Source: a virus. Taken from it: a stretch of DNA of 32,586 nucleotides. Under the pieces are notes generated by a model. That model was not told where the DNA came from, ran no database searches, and saw only the letters and a list, made by a program, of their open reading frames with translations. Positions 693-19,494 of this stretch are shown piece by piece; the first letter of the stretch is position 1, and each line of letters opens with the position of its first letter. A program made the translations under genes and the position numbers. The stretch lies in the IMG/VR virus record IMGVR_UViG_3300042731_003178, positions 1-32,586 of that record; one strand, written 5' to 3'.

Positions 693-1250
693 ATGATAAT
701 CAGTGACAGGGTAAACAACCTATCATCCAGCCGGTATAAGTTTAAACGCTACGAATTTCCTGACGGCTTTAAATTATTAATCGACACCCGCGAACAGCAG
801 CCGTTATTTAAGAAGTTATCGTATTCAAACCCAAAACACTTTACATTTTCAACTCTAAAAGACGGTGACTACAGTATAAAAGGTTTTGAGTCGTCGTTCG
901 CAATCGAGCGTAAAAAAGCTTCTGACTTTTACAGCTACATATCATCCGAGAGAAGCGTTCGGCACAAGAATAATAAAAAGCGGGTTGATCGTACCAAAAG
1001 AAAACTATTGCGATTATCTGAATTCGAATTCGCCGCTCTGGTTATCGATGCGGACTATTCTGAAATATTATCGCCGCAGGTTTATTGTAACGTGTCTCCA
1101 GAGGTCGCCAGACAGTTTTTAGCGTCCATTCAAGTCAGATACGGCATTCATGTTTTTATACACCGGCGAAAAGATTATCTTGAACGCTGGATTTTAGACC
1201 GGGCAATTAAATTTTATAATGTTAAACGGGAGGTGGCTGGACATGGATAA
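693..1250 (+). CDS. ERCC4/XPF-type DNA nuclease
   Basis: Encodes 185 residues. The ERCC4 nuclease core is visible in order: IDTREQ (residues 30-34), GDY (58-60) and the signature IERKKASD (71-78), which matches the ERKxxxD metal-binding motif of XPF/Mus81/Hef nucleases. Members of this family cut branched or flap DNA by a metal-dependent mechanism. The protein is nuclease-only: no helicase domain and no obvious C-terminal helix-hairpin-helix pair. It lies just downstream of the putative ssDNA-binding gene and about 3 kb from a XPD-like helicase, suggesting a role in phage replication or recombination intermediate processing. The next gene overlaps its last codons. Confidence 0.88.
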   Translation: MIISDRVNNLSSSRYKFKRYEFPDGFKLLIDTREQQPLFKKLSYSNPKHFTFSTLKDGDYSIKGFESSFAIERKKASDFYSYISSERSVRHKNNKKRVDRTKRKLLRLSEFEFAALVIDADYSEILSPQVYCNVSPEVARQFLASIQVRYGIHVFIHRRKDYLERWILDRAIKFYNVKREVAGHG

Positions 1251-1985: not shown

Positions 1986-2020
1986 ATAAATAGCATCATT
2001 AAACAAGGATGGTGAATAAA
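1983..2020. repeat. 38-bp direct repeat, copy 2
   Basis: Second copy of the repeat at 1665-1702, 318 bp downstream. It contains AAGGATGG and runs into the ATG at 2020, so it provides the ribosome-binding region of that gene. Confidence 0.85.
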
Positions 2021-2607
2021 TGGATTTTAAAAGATCAGAAAAACAATTAAATTTGGAAGAACACTGGGCCCATAAGGTTGCCCGGAAGTTCGAAGGAACC
2101 ATACCGGTATTAACAAAACTCCCGAAAGATGGTGAAAAGTCTGATATCCGGTTTCGGGGCCTCAGTCGGTTGATCAATCTTGCGTCAACTATATGCACGG
2201 TATCACACAACCGGTTTAAGCATGTCGGGGAAGTACACAGGGCCGCCCATTATATCGGTATGAATATTCTGTTTAACATGTACGGCAAGCAGGATAAAAA
2301 TGTCAAGAGCTACGGTTCTGATATGTACGAGGTTCTAAAAGTTAATGAACAGTACCGGGCCCAGTGTACTTTAATTGATGACATGCTTGACGGTGCCAGA
2401 GATATCTTAAAAGCGGCATCGGTTGGTATCATGTCTTACGAGCAGCGAGACGCTAATATCCAAGAGTTAATCGACAGTCTGCCGCCTAACCTTAGAAAAC
2501 TGGCAGCGTCTAAAATATTGGAACTCAGGGGCGGCAGTAATGTAACCGACATTAAGGAAATGACGACGCGGGGCGGTGACCGTAAGAGCAAAAAGGCGCT
2601 GGGTTAA
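2020..2607 (+). CDS. Hypothetical phage protein, helical and basic
   Basis: Encodes 195 residues, largely helical, rich in Lys/Arg with a strongly basic C-terminus (GGDRKSKKALG). The central segment has regularly spaced His and Tyr residues (HNRFKHVGEVHRAAHYIGM) that could form a helical bundle. No catalytic motif is recognised. Its position between the nuclease and helicase suggests a DNA-associated role, but this is context only. The start is supported by AAGGATGG inside the direct repeat. The last codons lie in a 27-bp tandem duplication. Confidence 0.65.
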   Translation: MDFKRSEKQLNLEEHWAHKVARKFEGTIPVLTKLPKDGEKSDIRFRGLSRLINLASTICTVSHNRFKHVGEVHRAAHYIGMNILFNMYGKQDKNVKSYGSDMYEVLKVNEQYRAQCTLIDDMLDGARDILKAASVGIMSYEQRDANIQELIDSLPPNLRKLAASKILELRGGSNVTDIKEMTTRGGDRKSKKALG

Positions 2608-2768: not shown

Positions 2769-2918
2769 GTACTATGTTGATGCACTGCTATATTGATGTG
2801 TTGATGCTTTGGTCTATATATGCACCTTTGATGTATTGCTGTGTTGCTGCATTGATTTCTATATGGATGTTTGATCTTATGTTGTATTGCTGCATTGATG
2901 TATTGATGTGTTGATGTG
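2769..2918. repeat. Left array of 8-bp repeats (TTGATGNN)
   Basis: TTGATG or close variants recur at an exact 8-bp period in three phase blocks: starts at 2777, 2793, 2801; 2828, 2836, 2844, 2852; and 2871, 2887, 2895, 2903, 2911. Variants are mostly TTGCTG. The reverse complement is the CATCAA motif of the array at 3045-3108, so the two arrays face each other across an AT-rich core. No credible gene lies in 2744-3122; a minus-strand reading frame here is only translated repeat. Iteron-type replication origins and partition or repressor sites share this layout. Confidence 0.8.
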
Positions 2919-3044
2919 TGGGAGTTATGCTTAATTATATGATAAAGTAAAGGACTTATACCGCAAAAATCAAACATCCGTAATAGTAATAAGTTATGGT
3001 AATATAGGGGATTTTGGAAAAATGATAAAAATACTTGACATATA
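2919..3044. other. AT-rich core between inverted 8-bp repeat arrays
   Basis: About 126 bp with no credible gene, mostly A and T, lying between the two inverted arrays. It is the natural candidate for a DNA-unwinding element if the arrays are an origin. A -35-like TTGACA lies at its right end (3035-3040). The function is inference from layout. Confidence 0.4.
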
Positions 3045-3063
3045 CAGCAACACATCATAGGAT
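3035..3063 (+). promoter_or_regulatory. Candidate sigma70-type promoter overlapping the right repeat array
   Basis: TTGACA at 3035-3040 and TAGGAT at 3058-3063 are 17 bp apart. The -10 box and the presumed start site fall inside the CATCAA array, so any protein that binds the array would probably block or control this promoter, which would serve the membrane-protein-to-helicase operon. Confidence 0.45.
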
Positions 3064-3108
3064 CAAAGCATCAATATATCAACACATCAAAACATCATAG
3101 TATCAAAC
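3045..3108. repeat. Right array of eight 8-bp repeats (CATCAANN)
   Basis: Eight consecutive octamers run without interruption: CAGCAACA, CATCATAG, GATCAAAG, CATCAATA, TATCAACA, CATCAAAA, CATCATAG, TATCAAAC. The array stops just before the ribosome-binding site (GGAGG) of the gene at 3123. It is in inverted orientation to the array at 2769-2918, and the outer part of one array is similar to the reverse complement of the other. Confidence 0.85.
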
Positions 3109-3122
3109 ATGGAGGCTATTAC

Positions 3123-3843: not shown

Positions 3844-4082
3844 AAGTAAGAGTAGATAAACCAGTTATCGAAAAGTTTGACAGGCTGATTGACAAGATTG
3901 ACGAGCTGCCGAAAATCAAAGGCAGGGCACAGCTTCGGCGGAATGTATATAATAAAAGAAAATATGTTATGCTGTTTAAAACCAGTGGCAATGTTGAAAA
4001 ATTATTAATTAAAGAAGCGGAAAAACTGTACAATGACTTCGTGGAATATGTTGACGACTATTACAGGACGCTTGAATCATGA
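3840..4082 (+). CDS. Small basic hypothetical protein upstream of helicase
   Basis: Encodes 80 residues, Lys/Arg-rich and helical, with an ATGA overlap at each end. Tight coupling to the helicase suggests a helicase partner or loader, but no family is recognised. Confidence 0.6.
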   Translation: MKVRVDKPVIEKFDRLIDKIDELPKIKGRAQLRRNVYNKRKYVMLFKTSGNVEKLLIKEAEKLYNDFVEYVDDYYRTLES

Positions 4083-5677
4083 ACGATACATACAACAACT
4101 TAAAAAATATATATTCCAAGTTCACAGAAAAAACATTCCGGCCCCAACAGGAATCAACAATTGATTTTCTCTGTAATTCCGACGCTAGAATCCGAATAAT
4201 CCAAGCGTCAACCGGTTTCGGAAAATCGCTGGTAGGTATGATTACCGGTGCTTATTACGGACAATTTACTTATCTTGTATCGTCAAAACAACTTCAAGAC
4301 CAATTAGAATCAGACTTCCCGGAAGTGGTCGTAATGAAAGGCAGGAACAACTATTCATGCACTAAATTTCCGATGCTGTCAGCCGCAGAATGCTTACACA
4401 CTTCCCAAGACCCTTGTAAATACAAACATGTTCAATGTCCTTACGAATCGGCTAAAAAGCGCGCCATGTCTGCAAAGTATCGGGTTTTAAACTACCATTA
4501 TTTTTTAAATGAAGTTAATTACGTCGGTAAATTTTCTGAAAATACTTTGTTAATATGCGACGAGGCCGATCTTCTAGAATTCTTACTAACCGATTTCATA
4601 TGTCTTAAAATCCCCGGTAAACTTATCAAGGAATTAAACATAAAATACCCAAAATACAAAACCACTCAGTCGGAAAACGCTCTTGAAGAGTGGTCGGTAT
4701 GGGCCGAGACGGAAGCAAAACCAAAAATATCAAACGAGCTAAGCAAAGTTGAAGACGAGATATCCATGTATTACGGAAACGGCGGGGATGACATAAAAAA
4801 ACTAATCAGAAAAAAACAGCAGTTGTCCGGCGCGATTGAGAGGTTAAATATATTTCTTACCCATGTAGACGATGACTGGCTGTATGAAGAATCAACTTTC
4901 GGACAAAACAAAAAATATAAAGACTATCCAACAATAACATTTAAGCCGACGTGGTTGACTGAGTCCCTTGCGCACAATTATTTCTTTTCTCACTCCCGAC
5001 ATGTTATTTTCATGTCCGCAACGTTCCCGCCCAGACTGGTAATGTCAAAGCTTTTCGGATGTCCGCCGGATCAATTCCAGCTTAAAGACATACCAAGCCC
5101 GTACGCAATCGAAAACAGAAAAATAATATTAAACCCGGCTGCGGATATGACTTATAAAAAATTTGATAAGGAAGTTTATAAGTTAATCGAAAAAATAAAA
5201 GAAATAATTTCTAAACATAAAAACCAGAAAGGTATTATCCATACAGTCAGCTATAAATTAAACAAGCTTATAGTTGATACAATAAACAACCCACGGTTAA
5301 TAACCCACGATAACAAAAACCGCGCGGAAGTTATAGACAGGTTCAAGTATTCAGACAAACCGTTAATACTGGTATCACCTTCAATCACCCGTGGCGTTGA
5401 CTTTCCAGCCGAACAATGCGAATTTCAAATATGCGCAAAGGCCCCGTTTAAATCCCTTGGCGACAAACTTACAAATTCCAGAGTACACAGTTCTAAAATC
5501 GGCAACCTGTGGTATAAAGCAATCACAGCGCAGGAGGTAATACAGTCATGCGGACGCGGCGTGAGATCATCAACGGACAAATGCATAACATACATGCTTG
5601 ATAAACAGATATGTGATTTAATATTAGACAACCGGAAATTATTCCCCGGTTATTTTCTGGACGCAATTGACATATAG
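4079..5677 (+). CDS. DinG/XPD-type superfamily 2 DNA helicase with Fe-S cysteines
   Basis: Encodes 532 residues. Motif I is ASTGFGKS (43-50), motif II is DEAD (161-164), and motif VI is QSCGRGVRSS starting near residue 489. Between motifs I and II are four cysteines (94, 105, 113, 120), placed like the four that hold a 4Fe-4S cluster in XPD, DinG and Rad3; the CPYESAKK segment after the last is typical. Such helicases unwind 5'-3' using ATP. Located in a replication/recombination block with an XPF-type nuclease. It could open the phage origin, process recombination intermediates or remove R-loops. The start overlaps the preceding stop. Confidence 0.88.
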   Translation: MNDTYNNLKNIYSKFTEKTFRPQQESTIDFLCNSDARIRIIQASTGFGKSLVGMITGAYYGQFTYLVSSKQLQDQLESDFPEVVVMKGRNNYSCTKFPMLSAAECLHTSQDPCKYKHVQCPYESAKKRAMSAKYRVLNYHYFLNEVNYVGKFSENTLLICDEADLLEFLLTDFICLKIPGKLIKELNIKYPKYKTTQSENALEEWSVWAETEAKPKISNELSKVEDEISMYYGNGGDDIKKLIRKKQQLSGAIERLNIFLTHVDDDWLYEESTFGQNKKYKDYPTITFKPTWLTESLAHNYFFSHSRHVIFMSATFPPRLVMSKLFGCPPDQFQLKDIPSPYAIENRKIILNPAADMTYKKFDKEVYKLIEKIKEIISKHKNQKGIIHTVSYKLNKLIVDTINNPRLITHDNKNRAEVIDRFKYSDKPLILVSPSITRGVDFPAEQCEFQICAKAPFKSLGDKLTNSRVHSSKIGNLWYKAITAQEVIQSCGRGVRSSTDKCITYMLDKQICDLILDNRKLFPGYFLDAIDI

Positions 5678-6406: not shown

Positions 6407-6877
6407 ATGGAAAAATGTGAGCATAAGAGTTGCGACTGCATGGGGGTTCCAGACTGTTTGTTGTTTGGCGGCGGCAGGAAAATTGATTGTACAAAGTATC
6501 AGGACTTCAAAGCCGGGCAGGAATCGGAGAGGGAGAAATACTCAGCCAATTTTTTGTGGCCCCATGAAGACGATTCAATTGAGCAGCTTGGATATGAATT
6601 TGCGAATGCAAGAACAGAAGAATATCAAAAAGAAATTTGGGAAGAATTGACAAAGCGGATTCCCAGAATCACCCTAACCGGCAAAGACACTGACAATCCT
6701 AAGCTGTGTTTGAATGGGAAGGTGATTGCGTGGGTTGTGGAAGAATTTAGACATAATTTTGATGAAAGGCGTTATGGGTATCGGACAATTGATAGACATA
6801 AATCAGAAAATTTCAAAACCAAACCCGAAGCGGTAGAGGCTATGTGCCAACACTTTGGGGTGAAGGGGGTTGTATGA
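6407..6877 (+). CDS. Hypothetical protein with N-terminal Cys cluster and a repeated C-terminal module
   Basis: Encodes 156 residues, with a GAGGGG site before the ATG. Five cysteines in the first 28 residues (CEHKSCDCMGVPDC... then C28) suggest metal binding. The C-terminal ~70 residues (LNGKVIAWV ... EAVEAMCQHFG) match the small protein at 8152-8388 in pattern (INGVCVAWV ... TALRNMCKRFG), so it carries the same small module. The central segment KAGQESEREK also resembles KAGLSQGRKEQ in the genes at 9914 and 10833. It appears to be assembled from modules that recur in this region. Function unknown. Confidence 0.65.
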   Translation: MEKCEHKSCDCMGVPDCLLFGGGRKIDCTKYQDFKAGQESEREKYSANFLWPHEDDSIEQLGYEFANARTEEYQKEIWEELTKRIPRITLTGKDTDNPKLCLNGKVIAWVVEEFRHNFDERRYGYRTIDRHKSENFKTKPEAVEAMCQHFGVKGVV

Positions 6878-7638: not shown

Positions 7639-8133
7639 ATGATACAAATTAAACACAGATTTACAGGAAAAATTATTTTTGAAGCAAAAGTAAAAACTAT
7701 TGAGGAATGTGTTTTAAAAGCACATGAACAAGGTGTAAGTTTGGAAAATGCAGAATTGAGAAATACAGAATTGGAAAATGCAGACTTAACATGTGCAAAC
7801 TTGGAAAATGCAAACTTAACATGTGTAAGTTTGGAAAATGCAAATTTGAGAAATGCAAATTTGAGAAATGCAGACTTAACATGTGCAGAATTGAGAGGCA
7901 TAAAAAATTATTCAGAAAACCATGATATATTTTTTGAGTTAATTAAGAGAAACAAAGTTAAAATATTTTCTAAAACCCAGTGGGAATGTATCAGACAAAT
8001 AACTATACATCGTCTTTGCTGGCATAGCATTAAAAAGCGATTTGGAAAAACGGCAATGGGAGTTTTTAAAAAAATATCAAAAATGGGTTTTGATGAATAT
8101 GAAAAACGATATGAAGAAATTCTAAAAGACTAA
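7639..8133 (+). CDS. Pentapeptide-repeat protein
   Basis: Encodes 164 residues. Residues ~33-87 contain about 11 pentapeptides of the A(N/D)LxN type, which fold as a right-handed quadrilateral beta-helix; 11 repeats would give fewer than three coils. The C-terminal ~75 residues form a separate domain (SENHDIFFELIKR ... CWHSIKKRFGKTAMGVF) seen at the end of many phage pentapeptide proteins. Some family members mimic DNA and inhibit gyrase, but this one is short and the role is unknown. The repeat DNA is made of near-identical 15-bp units. A GGGGGTT site precedes the ATG. Confidence 0.85.
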   Translation: MIQIKHRFTGKIIFEAKVKTIEECVLKAHEQGVSLENAELRNTELENADLTCANLENANLTCVSLENANLRNANLRNADLTCAELRGIKNYSENHDIFFELIKRNKVKIFSKTQWECIRQITIHRLCWHSIKKRFGKTAMGVFKKISKMGFDEYEKRYEEILKD

Positions 8134-8462: not shown

Positions 8463-8518
8463 CGGCAGGGTTTGTCAATGATCAATTGAGAATTAACGGC
8501 GTGTGCGTGGCATATGAA
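8447..8518 (+). pseudogene. N-terminal fragment of the split 8152-type gene
   Basis: In frame this reads EIKVTAGFVNDQLRINGVCV then AYE and a stop at 8516-8518. It matches the N-terminal half of the gene at 8152 (TKITAELKNNRLEINGVCVA). The matching C-terminal half appears at 9406-9465, on the far side of the PAPS-reductase-family gene. No start codon remains; the fragment's end overlaps the start of that gene. Confidence 0.6.
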
Positions 8519-9407
8519 TAGTGAATATTTAAAAAGTCTTCAATCAAAATCTCTTGAAGAAAAAATAATCATGACAAAAGAGCGCATTACTCAATGGTAT
8601 GATTATTGGAATGGATTAGTATGCATATCATTTTCAGGCGGAAAAGACTCAACTGTTTTGTTACATATTGCAAGATCAATATATCCAGACTTGCAAGCTA
8701 TCTTTGTTGATACCGGGCTTGAATATCCTGAAATCAGACAATTTGTTAAAAAGATATCTAACGTTAAATGGCTAAGACCTCAAATGTCGTTTTCTAAAGT
8801 TATAAAAAAATATGGTTATCCGATTATAAGTAAACAGCAGGCAAGATATATTTCAGATGTTCAGAATACTTCTGATAGAAATAAAGCAACGTGCAACTTA
8901 AGGTTAACTGGTTTTAACAGGCGCGGTATATACTGCCCTTCAATGCGAATATCAAAAAAATGGATACCATTAACAAAAGCACCCTTTAAAGTATCATCAT
9001 ATTGTTGTGATATAATCAAAAAGAAACCTTTAAAAAAATATCATAAAAAACATAATTTACACCCAATGATAGGTATTATGGCGGAGGATAGCCGACAACG
9101 GCAATTGCATTATTATAACCACGGGTGTAATAATTTTAAAAGCAGTGATCCTGTGTCTTGGCCTCTTTCTTTTTGGACAACAGACGATATTTGGGAGTAC
9201 ATCAAACGGTTTAATGTGCCTTACTCAAAAATATATGATATGGGCGAATCCAGAACTGGATGTATGTTTTGCTTGTTTGGAGTGCACCTTGAAAAAGAGC
9301 CAAACAGGTTTCAACGGATGAAAAATACACATCCTAAACAATATGATTTTTGTATTAATAAATTGGGGTGTGGTGATGTTTTAGATTTTATTGGCGTTAA
9401 TTATTAA
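8514..9407 (+). CDS. PAPS-reductase-family (PP-loop) protein
   Basis: Encodes 297 residues. The PP-loop SGGKDST (41-47) binds and activates ATP or an adenylylated substrate; VDTGLEYPE (~66-73) is also typical of the family. Cysteines C164/C165 (SSYCCDIIKKKP) and C250/C253 (TGCMFCLFG) form a probable four-cysteine iron-sulfur site, as in phage PAPS-reductase-like and DndC-like proteins. The actual reaction is uncertain: sulfur activation, DNA or RNA thiolation or a defence-related function are possible. The ribosome-binding site is weak. The gene sits exactly inside a split copy of the 8152-type gene, suggesting it arrived as a cassette. Confidence 0.82.
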   Translation: MNSEYLKSLQSKSLEEKIIMTKERITQWYDYWNGLVCISFSGGKDSTVLLHIARSIYPDLQAIFVDTGLEYPEIRQFVKKISNVKWLRPQMSFSKVIKKYGYPIISKQQARYISDVQNTSDRNKATCNLRLTGFNRRGIYCPSMRISKKWIPLTKAPFKVSSYCCDIIKKKPLKKYHKKHNLHPMIGIMAEDSRQRQLHYYNHGCNNFKSSDPVSWPLSFWTTDDIWEYIKRFNVPYSKIYDMGESRTGCMFCLFGVHLEKEPNRFQRMKNTHPKQYDFCINKLGCGDVLDFIGVNY

Positions 9408-9663: not shown

Positions 9664-9921
9664 ATGATAACAAAAATAAGATACGTAGGGGGTTGCGAAG
9701 GAAGCTCATTTCACATCGGTGATATCCGTGTCGCTGGTCCGAAAGCATGGGGCGGCGGAACTGTTAAGGATGAAAAAGAAATTTCTGTTCAGGATATTCT
9801 TTACGCGCTGAACAATATTTATTATCCGCCACATCAACCGCTAAAAACGGCAATAGAGGAATGTGAAAGGCTGTTGGAGTATTTAAAAAATAAAAACGAC
9901 AGGGGGGTATATAATGGATGA
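9664..9921 (+). CDS. Small hypothetical protein
   Basis: Encodes 85 residues from the ATG at 9664, chosen for AAGGAG at 9651-9656; longer in-frame starts upstream would overlap the previous gene without a ribosome-binding site. It has a Gly-rich N-terminal half (GGCEGSSFHIGD ... AWGGGTV) and a helical C-terminus (LKTAIEECERLLEYLK), a segment also echoed in the next gene (LKTAIENYEK). Unknown function. Confidence 0.55.
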   Translation: MITKIRYVGGCEGSSFHIGDIRVAGPKAWGGGTVKDEKEISVQDILYALNNIYYPPHQPLKTAIEECERLLEYLKNKNDRGVYNG

Positions 9922-10261
9922 TTTATTAATGAACTATAACGGCGTAGACAAACCAGTAGAAAATCAAAATGAGTTCAAAAAGGAAATAGAATTATACAAA
10001 CATTTCAAAGCCGGACTATCTCAAGGCCGAAAAGAGCAGATGGAAGATGATGTCTGTGTATTAAAAACGGCTATTGAAAATTATGAAAAATCTGTAAAAG
10101 ATAGCGAAATAGTTAAATTTGTTGGCGATGAAATTGTCAAGGTACTTAAAGAAGCAATCAACCGGATAAAGGAGGTGACGGATGGAAGAAGAAAAACGAA
10201 TAAAAGTAAAAGCCATGAGATATCACGCATTAAAAGCATACCCCGACAAAATAACAGATGA
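9914..10261 (+). CDS. Small coiled protein, paralogue of 10833-11075, with lost stop
   Basis: Encodes 115 residues; GGGGGG precedes the ATG. Residues ~30-45 (HFKAGLSQGRKEQMEDD) and ~86-91 (EAINRIK) match the gene at 10833 closely, at DNA level too. In the paralogue the chain ends two residues after INRIK; here an indel removes that stop and the frame runs ~25 residues further as a Lys/Arg/Ser-rich tail that overlaps another gene (10182). Function unknown; the helical pattern suggests a short coiled coil. Confidence 0.6.
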   Translation: MDDLLMNYNGVDKPVENQNEFKKEIELYKHFKAGLSQGRKEQMEDDVCVLKTAIENYEKSVKDSEIVKFVGDEIVKVLKEAINRIKEVTDGRRKTNKSKSHEISRIKSIPRQNNR

Positions 10262-17926: not shown

Positions 17927-18943
17927 ATGACAACCGCAAAACAAAGAGCATACAATATAAGACGTGCTACCGCCGCCGCCCGAAAGCAGTATGACCGATA
18001 CGAGGTTACAAAGCTAAAAGAAATATACAGCGTATTCGAGCAGGCCGCAAATGATATTGAGCTTAAAATATCCCGCATGGCAGTTGAAGGAAAAATACCG
18101 CCTGAACGCCTCCAGACTGTCTTAAACATGCTTACAAACGAAATGCTGTACATCCGCAATACTTTAAACCAGATGATACCTGACGGCATATCAGATGTTA
18201 TAGACTTTAATTTAAAACAACAGATAAACATATTTAACGGCAATGTCCGCGAAGGCGCAAACGCTCAAATCGGATCGTCATACTTTAAAAAGTCCGGCGA
18301 GATAGCGAGGTATAACCCAAGGGCAGAGCGTTATATTGAATCTCAATGGTATCGCCTCAATACATCCGCAGTACAAGCCGTCATGTCATGGAACCCTGCC
18401 GGTGAAACGTTGTCCGACCGTATTTGGAAGATAGCAATTAACGGTGAGCGCGCATTGCATCAACAAACCCGCATAGGCGTTATATTGGGTGAATCCGCCG
18501 ACGTTCTAAGCAGACGATTGCGCCCGTTTCTTGTGCAGCCTGACAAGTTGTTCCGGCGTGTACGTAAGGGCGGCAAGCTCGTACAGTCAAAGGCCATGAA
18601 AGCGTACACGCCCGGACGCGGTATATACAAATCATCATACAAGAACGCTTTAAGGCTTGCCAGATCAGAATATGCCAGAGCATACACCGAAGGAACCATA
18701 CACTACTCCCGGTCAAAAGATTTTATAAAGGGTTGGATATCGCGCATAGGCTCAAGCAATCCGGCCCCATACGATCTAAGCGTTAACGGTAAGTTTTTCA
18801 GCAAGGAACGCGGGATTGACATTCCTTATCATTCTCAATGCATGTGTCATGCTGAAATAGTCACAGACGACACGCCCCAAAGCCAGCTAATACCGGCAAT
18901 GGGGCGCACAGAATTTAATCGAGGGCAGTTAGCGGCGGTTTAG
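17927..18943 (+). CDS. Phage head morphogenesis protein (SPP1 gp7/MuF type)
   Basis: Encodes 338 residues. The C-terminal domain (KNALRLARSEYARAYTEGTIHYSRSKDFIKGW ... PYHSQCMCHAEIV) shows the R-x-E-x-x-R/A and C-x-C-H pattern of MuF-like proteins. The N-terminal ~200 residues are helical. These proteins are minor capsid components that assist DNA delivery or capsid assembly. Its last 15 bp overlap the convergent minus-strand operon. Confidence 0.82.
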   Translation: MTTAKQRAYNIRRATAAARKQYDRYEVTKLKEIYSVFEQAANDIELKISRMAVEGKIPPERLQTVLNMLTNEMLYIRNTLNQMIPDGISDVIDFNLKQQINIFNGNVREGANAQIGSSYFKKSGEIARYNPRAERYIESQWYRLNTSAVQAVMSWNPAGETLSDRIWKIAINGERALHQQTRIGVILGESADVLSRRLRPFLVQPDKLFRRVRKGGKLVQSKAMKAYTPGRGIYKSSYKNALRLARSEYARAYTEGTIHYSRSKDFIKGWISRIGSSNPAPYDLSVNGKFFSKERGIDIPYHSQCMCHAEIVTDDTPQSQLIPAMGRTEFNRGQLAAV

Positions 18944-19117
18944 GTTGTACTGTAGTATATATTTTTTAATCTCATCAACATTAATAATCCAGTCGCGTCC
19001 CACCTTATTACCTTTCAACTTCCCGCTTCTACACAACTGCCGCACCCGCGACCGGTGTACGTCCAGCATTTTCGCAGCTTCATGACTGCTTAACAGTTTG
19101 AATTTTTTTACCGGCAT
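18929..19117 (-). CDS. Excisionase-like helix-turn-helix regulator
   Basis: Encodes 62 residues from the ATG at 19117, preceded on the minus strand by AAGGAAACAA. LSSHEAAKMLDVHRSRVRQL then GKLKGNKVGRDWII is the winged-helix pattern of MerR/excisionase (Xis)-type DNA-binding domains. It ends a three-gene minus-strand operon placed between the head morphogenesis and protease genes, and overlaps the MuF-type gene convergently. It is a strong candidate to bind the palindrome in its own promoter and repress it. Alternatively it may be an excisionase of a resident element. Confidence 0.75.
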   Translation of the reverse strand: MPVKKFKLLSSHEAAKMLDVHRSRVRQLCRSGKLKGNKVGRDWIINVDEIKKYILQYNLNRR

Positions 19118-19241
19118 TTGTTTCCTTCCTTTTTTCGTTAATATTAATATGTGCGTAGATGTTCGTTGTGTTTCCACAGTATGGGCACACGGACTCATGA
19201 TAGACATTTCTGCAACTTAAACATATTACTGGGTTTAGCAT
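19080..19241 (-). CDS. Small zinc-ribbon protein (minus-strand operon)
   Basis: Encodes 53 residues from the minus-strand ATG at 19241, preceded by AAAGGAAAAG. CLSCRNVYHESVCPYCG is a four-cysteine zinc ribbon. It overlaps the HTH gene by 38 bp. The frame is open upstream to 19355, but that part overlaps the preceding gene. Likely nucleic-acid binding. Confidence 0.58.
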   Translation of the reverse strand: MLNPVICLSCRNVYHESVCPYCGNTTNIYAHININEKRKETNAGKKIQTVKQS

Positions 19242-19266
19242 TTTCTTTTCCTTTGCCAATAGCCTG

Positions 19267-19443
19267 TTACTGGTTTTGGGTTTTGCACCGCATAATTTCC
19301 TTAATATGTTTTTCATATTCATCCACCTGTCTCCATAGTGTTTTGTTTCTTTCATCCAGCCCTGTCCATATGATGGCTATTATCGTATGCGGGACGGTGT
19401 AGTCTCCCTGATGTTCAAAATTGCGTAAGAATGATTTTGGCAT
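19267..19443 (-). CDS. Small hypothetical protein, first gene of the minus-strand operon
   Basis: Encodes 58 residues from the ATG at 19443 (starts MPKSFLRNFEHQGDYTVP), with GGAGAT upstream on the minus strand. The C-terminus is a Lys/Glu/Arg helix. No family recognised. A 17-spaced promoter with an internal palindrome lies directly upstream. Confidence 0.55.
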   Translation of the reverse strand: MPKSFLRNFEHQGDYTVPHTIIAIIWTGLDERNKTLWRQVDEYEKHIKEIMRCKTQNQ

Positions 19444-19494
19444 TTTTAAATCTCCTTTTTTATAGTTATTATTTTTTCTCATCCTCTACCTTAT

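Follow-up and report, generated by a model that had tools for sequence, protein, structure and literature searches.

The DNA analysed here, referred to as the window, is the 32,586-bp linear virus record IMGVR_UViG_3300042731_003178 (IMG/VR) at its full length, which is itself a fragment. Nearly all of its genes are encoded on the + strand and no tRNA was found in it. The gene order runs from a DNA-handling module on the left through a series of small genes to the terminase, portal, head and tail genes. Two arrays of a short repeat are located between the gene starting at position 2020 (hereafter gene 2020) and a downstream early operon, which consists of a small membrane protein gene, small ORFs and a DinG-like helicase gene (Table 1). 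In a preliminary description of this DNA, the repeats were said to adjoin replication genes; the recognisable neighbours are instead an ERCC4 nuclease and a DinG-like helicase, which point to recombination or DNA handling and not to a replisome. Elsewhere in the window, the structural region, which is otherwise on the + strand, is interrupted by a short - strand cassette (18929-19482) with two small ORFs and a gene for an HTH_17/excisionase-like protein. A degenerate pentapeptide-like repeat (ANLENADLTC...) occurs in an ORF at 7639-8133 that is open on both strands, and an auxiliary gene resembling PAPS reductase (phrog_424, E 7e-55) was identified at 8514-9407.

Table 1. Features at and around the repeat arrays of the window.
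Feature	Position	Strand	Basis or remark
ERCC4-type nuclease	693..1250	+	Pfam ERCC4 E 8.6e-9; 47% identical in L075; upstream syntenic anchor
Gene 2020, candidate array binder; basic, 195 aa, pI 9.45	2020..2607	+	In two relatives, a homologue directly precedes a short-site array
46-aa hydrophobic ORF (ATG..TGA), through left array	2774..2914	+	Shine-Dalgarno-like AAAAGGA upstream
Left array, 17 units DWTGATRY	2776..2917	+	Three blocks 2776-2823, 2827-2866, 2870-2917; lag-8 self-match, PWM scan
AT-rich core, 126 bp, 27.8% GC	2918..3043	.	Composition
Conserved core element ATCAAACATCCGTAATAGTAATA	2969..2991	+	Contains one inverted unit; 21/23 identical to L079 6726-6748, E 8e-6
Promoter-like TTGACA-17-TAGGAT	3035..3063	+	10/12 consensus matches; spacer, -10 and leader within right array
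Right array, 8 uninterrupted units, inverse orientation	3044..3107	-	Lag-8 self-match; inverted copy of left-array stretch
Promoter-like TTGATA-17-TATGAT	3054..3082	-	Built from array units, reads leftward
Small membrane protein gene, 72 aa	3123..3341	+	GGAGG at 3111-3115; first gene downstream of array
DinG-like DNA helicase	4079..5677	+	phrog_2488 E 1e-84; syntenic anchor

Approximately 25 copies of an 8-bp unit were recognised in two runs of opposite orientation, 17 on the left and 8 on the right. Relative to letter shuffles, the self-match at lag 8 reached 0.58 in the left array (z 7.2) and 0.68 in the right array (z 6.2). The period claimed in the preliminary description, lying 6-7 standard deviations above shuffles, was thus confirmed, whereas the exactness claimed for the repeats was not, as the units are degenerate (DWTGATRY). 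Similarly, the exact 8-bp spacing ascribed to the left run holds within its three blocks of 6, 5 and 6 units and is lost overall through two +3-bp phase shifts (ACC at 2824-2826 and ATG at 2867-2869); the right array has no phase shift. Five-unit stretches within the arrays scored 32-49 bits with a position weight matrix (PWM), and the best stretch elsewhere in the window scored 14.6 bits. An alignment of the 17 left and 8 right 8-mers, the latter read on the - strand, gave the rule non-C, T/A, T, G, A (rarely C), T, G (or A), pyrimidine, with T at position 6 in all 25 units and a pyrimidine at position 8 in 24 of them. The hexamer CATCAA is exact in two of the eight right-hand units. The two arrays are also inverted copies of each other, in that 2867-2915 and 3062-3110 (49 nt) are 80% complementary.

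The opposed arrays, the eight uninterrupted right-hand units, the AT-rich middle of about 126 bp and the 17-spaced promoter running into the right array, all reported earlier, were reproduced. The GC content of the core compares with 40.1% for the window, and 2.5% of the 126-bp stretches of the window are equally low or lower. Promoter-like sequences were identified as consensus matches only, and these are weak evidence, since 21 were found when 13.4 were expected.

Relatives were sought among viral contigs by means of gene 2020 and the four small downstream proteins, and no close relative was found. Three relatives proved informative; their helicase is 70% identical in locus L002, 48% in L059/L079 and 39% in L075. 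The contig of L002 begins at the helicase, so that the array region is outside it. L059, L079 and L091-L093 all belong to one contig (G009:C171, hereafter C171), which encodes a terminase and a portal protein 63% and 56% identical to those of the window, the 48% identical helicase and a homologue of gene 2020 at L079 5981-6583 (E 6e-36 with a two-sequence profile). With two ends that agree over 60 bp or more, C171 is a circular phage genome, roughly 41 kb long, and not part of a chromosome; its binning with a Gastranaerophilales genome says little about the host. L075 is a piece of a 56-kb contig encoding two phage-type integrases, in which the order is, as in the window, g56, the ERCC4 nuclease, gene 2020 (27% identical) and the helicase. 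Among reference phages, the terminases of Marinitoga viruses are the nearest relatives (51-53%), and Marinitoga virus helicases are absent among the best matches. A Desulfobacterium contig (L060) was set aside as it has only the terminase in common with the window. A blastn match to Lactiplantibacillus phages, which covers a TG-rich noncoding stretch without the 8-bp period, was regarded as compositional.

In C171 the order ERCC4 nuclease, gene 2020, array and small membrane protein is the same as in the window, and the membrane protein gene (L079 6770-7009) is again the next one after the array. Nine units directly follow the stop codon of gene 2020, namely GTTGATAT ATTGACAT ATTGATAC TTTGATAT TTTGATTT ATTGATAT TATGATAC ATTGATAC TTTGATTT (L079 6592-6663, lag-8 z 6.8); four more follow after an interruption of 28 bp (6692-6723, z 3.5), all 13 being in one orientation. 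Contiguous, gapless runs of at least four units therefore measure 6, 5, 6 and 8 units in the window and 9 and 4 in its relative. In C171 the units obey the same rules as in the window, down to the less frequent A at position 2, and all 13 end in a pyrimidine. Over the 38 units of both phages, a pyrimidine at position 8, a base other than C at position 1 and T at position 6 each occur in 37. The window consensus was matched equally well by only 2 of 3000 column-permuted arrays. A PWM scan of the complete circular C171 genome picked out a single locus (34 and 29 bits), the next best stretch scoring 12.6. Besides the units, the two phages have in common the 23-bp core element ATCAANCATCCNTAATAGTAATA. 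Hexamers of the type TTGATA-17-TATGAT, with their spacing, also occur inside the array of C171; the promoter at 3035-3063 is not conserved there. Comparison of period and orientation in related phages had been proposed at the outset as a check: period and place are conserved in C171, and the opposed orientation is not, as C171 has no inverted array and only one inverted unit, which lies inside the 23-bp element.

The third phage carries a different word. In L075, 12 of the 15 GTAACG/CGTTAC sites of the 13.6-kb locus fall between gene 2020 and the helicase, in both orientations and several of them 9 bp apart. Because of this cluster, the place and the presence of clustered short sites can be called conserved in three phages, and the word in two. 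Counted as the shorter GTAAC/GTTAC, sixteen sites, also in both orientations and several 9 bp apart, are found in L075 at 9669-10137, extending into the start of the helicase gene. The arrays are real and conserved, and they are probably functional.

Gene 2020 is the sole gene that accompanies the arrays in all three phages, each time immediately upstream. Its product is basic in the window, L079 and L075 (pI 9.2-9.6) and had no match in Pfam, NCBIfam, PHROG or PDB. A tblastn search of 50,697 phage and 72,556 plasmid records gave no match, and a profile of the protein searched in 389, 395 and 383 genomes matched only the phage contig already found. By eye, residues ~41-90 resemble a ribbon-helix-helix domain, with a strand SDIRFR, a helix, a loop and a helix VGEVHRAAHYIG, at a spacing that exceeds the usual one by five residues. 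The putative DNA-facing residues are D/R/R in the window and L079, which have the same word, and R/E/S in L075, which has the other one. An hmmsearch with a small home-made ribbon-helix-helix profile remained at noise level. In hhalign, the same comparison gave a probability of 4.5% and a single-pair E of 0.009 in the expected register, which is weakly suggestive. AlphaFold models of the whole protein and of the domain, built from two-sequence alignments, were of low confidence (pLDDT 51 and 63) and contained helices without the strand. Two duplications were observed in the vicinity of the gene. A 54-nt direct repeat (1652-1705 and 1970-2023, 93% identical) precedes ORF 1710-1985 and gene 2020, respectively, and looks like the product of a duplication that copied a gene start together with its leader; a 27-nt tandem duplication (2575-2628) spans the 3' end of gene 2020.

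Several other explanations were considered. The opposed arrays might form a long transcript hairpin that controls the downstream gene, and the folding energy (z -2.4, with 2 of 100 shuffles as good) and the 49-nt arms of 80% complementarity are in favour of it. Nevertheless, such a hairpin is not a conserved element, because C171 is without an inverted array and offers only a 14-nt pair, and Rfam gave no match in either phage, so that little credence is given to an RNA element. The left array could also be a small gene, made of the repeat, for a hydrophobic peptide of 46 aa. Along this ORF, preceded by AAAAGGA, the TGA of the repeat is kept in none of the five units in which it would be in frame, whereas it is kept in 9 of the 12 out-of-frame left units, in 7 of the 8 right units and in all 13 units of C171. 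The loss gave a Fisher p of 0.009 within the left array and of 2.5e-4 against all units before correction for the choice of frame, and a unit-permutation p of 0.02. The frame, however, was picked after looking at the data, and the ORF is not conserved, the array of C171 being closed in all three frames. The missing stop codons are an unexplained hint that the left array may be, or may once have been, translated as well, and the peptide gene itself is considered very unlikely. As for a functionless microsatellite of host type that arose by replication slippage, 37 stretches of TTGATGNN octamer arrays did turn up in unrelated viral contigs. They consist for the most part of homogeneous copies, however, whereas here the units differ and their rules are common to two phages. 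Moreover, in one order that was tested, such arrays were present in only 3 of 291 genomes, where they were homogeneous, and the position of the array is conserved in the relative. A slippage product is accordingly given only a slight chance. One of the many homogeneous octamer microsatellites, an exact array of 13 TTGCTGTC octamers, was observed at position 387 (-) of the unrelated viral contig L047 (IMGVR_UViG_641509421_000001).

The evidence from period, unit rules and conservation supports the arrays as candidate cis-acting protein-binding sites, and this much of the earlier alternative between origin and operator was retained. A replication origin would require the gene-2020 product to be the initiator, the 8-bp units to be short iterons and the AT-rich core to be an unwinding element that loads host replication proteins. 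In iteron origins such as lambda ori, which is bound by the O protein, the repeats adjoin the initiator gene and an AT-rich stretch lies beside them. The window resembles these origins in having its repeats beside a gene and next to an AT-rich stretch, and initiator genes often adjoin their iterons. It is further in favour of an origin that the neighbouring genes handle DNA, that the array is a single locus in the complete C171 genome and that the scanned C171 proteins included no other recognisable initiator, primase or polymerase. On the other hand, the classic iterons measure 17-22 bp, whereas the units of the window are contiguous, only 8 bp long and present in many more copies; gene 2020 is without a DnaA-type or known initiator domain; and promoter-like hexamers lie inside the arrays. 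The GC skew, which had been suggested as a check near 2.9 kb, does not turn at the array in the window, nor within the first 40 kb of its relative, although the skew follows the one-directional genes here. An origin is held possible but doubtful, and is the main rival of the preferred reading. A type Ib-like partition centromere of a phage-plasmid, with gene 2020 encoding the centromere-binding protein, finds support in a layout that resembles parS of pSM19035. It is nevertheless judged unlikely because no ParA gene was found: the ParA-type ATPase (PF13614) is absent in the window, a fragment, and in the 56-kb relative, and a control search was positive in 14 of 14 genomes.

The preferred reading is that of an operator coated by protein, for which precedents exist. 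MetJ binds cooperatively to tandem 8-bp met boxes, one ribbon-helix-helix dimer per box, and these boxes are palindromic (AGACGTCT) and present in 2-5 copies. Tandem 8-bp sites are thus common to both systems, but the units of the window are non-palindromic and occur in 8-17 copies. Runs of 7-10 contiguous, non-palindromic 7-bp repeats, in direct or inverted orientation and overlapping promoters, are the target of the omega repressor of pSM19035, which wraps the DNA as a left-handed helix (PMC9499535; PMC5016525). The earlier description thus went too far in setting an 8-bp period apart from known systems. Contiguous short non-palindromic repeats, direct or inverted, are found in both cases, and in the window they overlap a candidate promoter defined by consensus only. 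The repeat differs, being the 7-bp WATCACW in pSM19035 and the 8-bp DWTGATRY in the window. Omega is a small protein coating its repeats; the proposed ligand in the window has 195 aa, was found without a ParA partner and has no detectable sequence relation to omega. The parH site of plasmid TP228, recognised by ParG, likewise combines direct and inverted repeats with AT-rich spacers beside the par operon (PMC5016525); its boxes are short, degenerate and separated by spacers, whereas the window presents eight contiguous informative positions per unit and no ParF.

Since a short-site array beside gene 2020 is conserved, the array is a candidate binding site of the gene-2020 product. In this reading, dimers of the protein would bind each 8-bp unit weakly and neighbouring units cooperatively, forming a short filament coiled about the DNA much like that of the omega repressor on its 7-bp sites. 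If the right array were coated, both the TTGACA-17-TAGGAT promoter and the operon leader behind it would be covered, and expression may thereby be shut off or timed; the left array and the core element may add affinity or permit looping. The coating reading is favoured because the right array spans the candidate promoter and because the arrays of both phages contain TTGATA-17-TATGAT hexamers. That cooperative coating by the gene-2020 product controls the early operon, as an autoregulatory operator, is put at slightly less than an even chance. The identity of the ligand, its cooperativity, the filament and the repressive outcome are all inferred. A more far-reaching version is considered improbable. 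According to it, gene 2020 would be the founder of a phage DNA-binding protein family not described before, whose members form a filament on contiguous 8-bp sites and initiate replication in a group of phages without another recognised initiator. The word would vary within this family, between DWTGATRY and GTAACG in 9-bp steps, and the array of one phage would have become a small membrane-peptide gene.

If the coating reading is true, these phages would provide an example of short-period helical coating of DNA, which has so far been seen mainly with plasmid repressors. With three relatives and two recognition words, the co-evolution of protein and DNA could be read from this locus. An unannotated phage gene family would thereby be tied to a concrete and compact candidate binding site.
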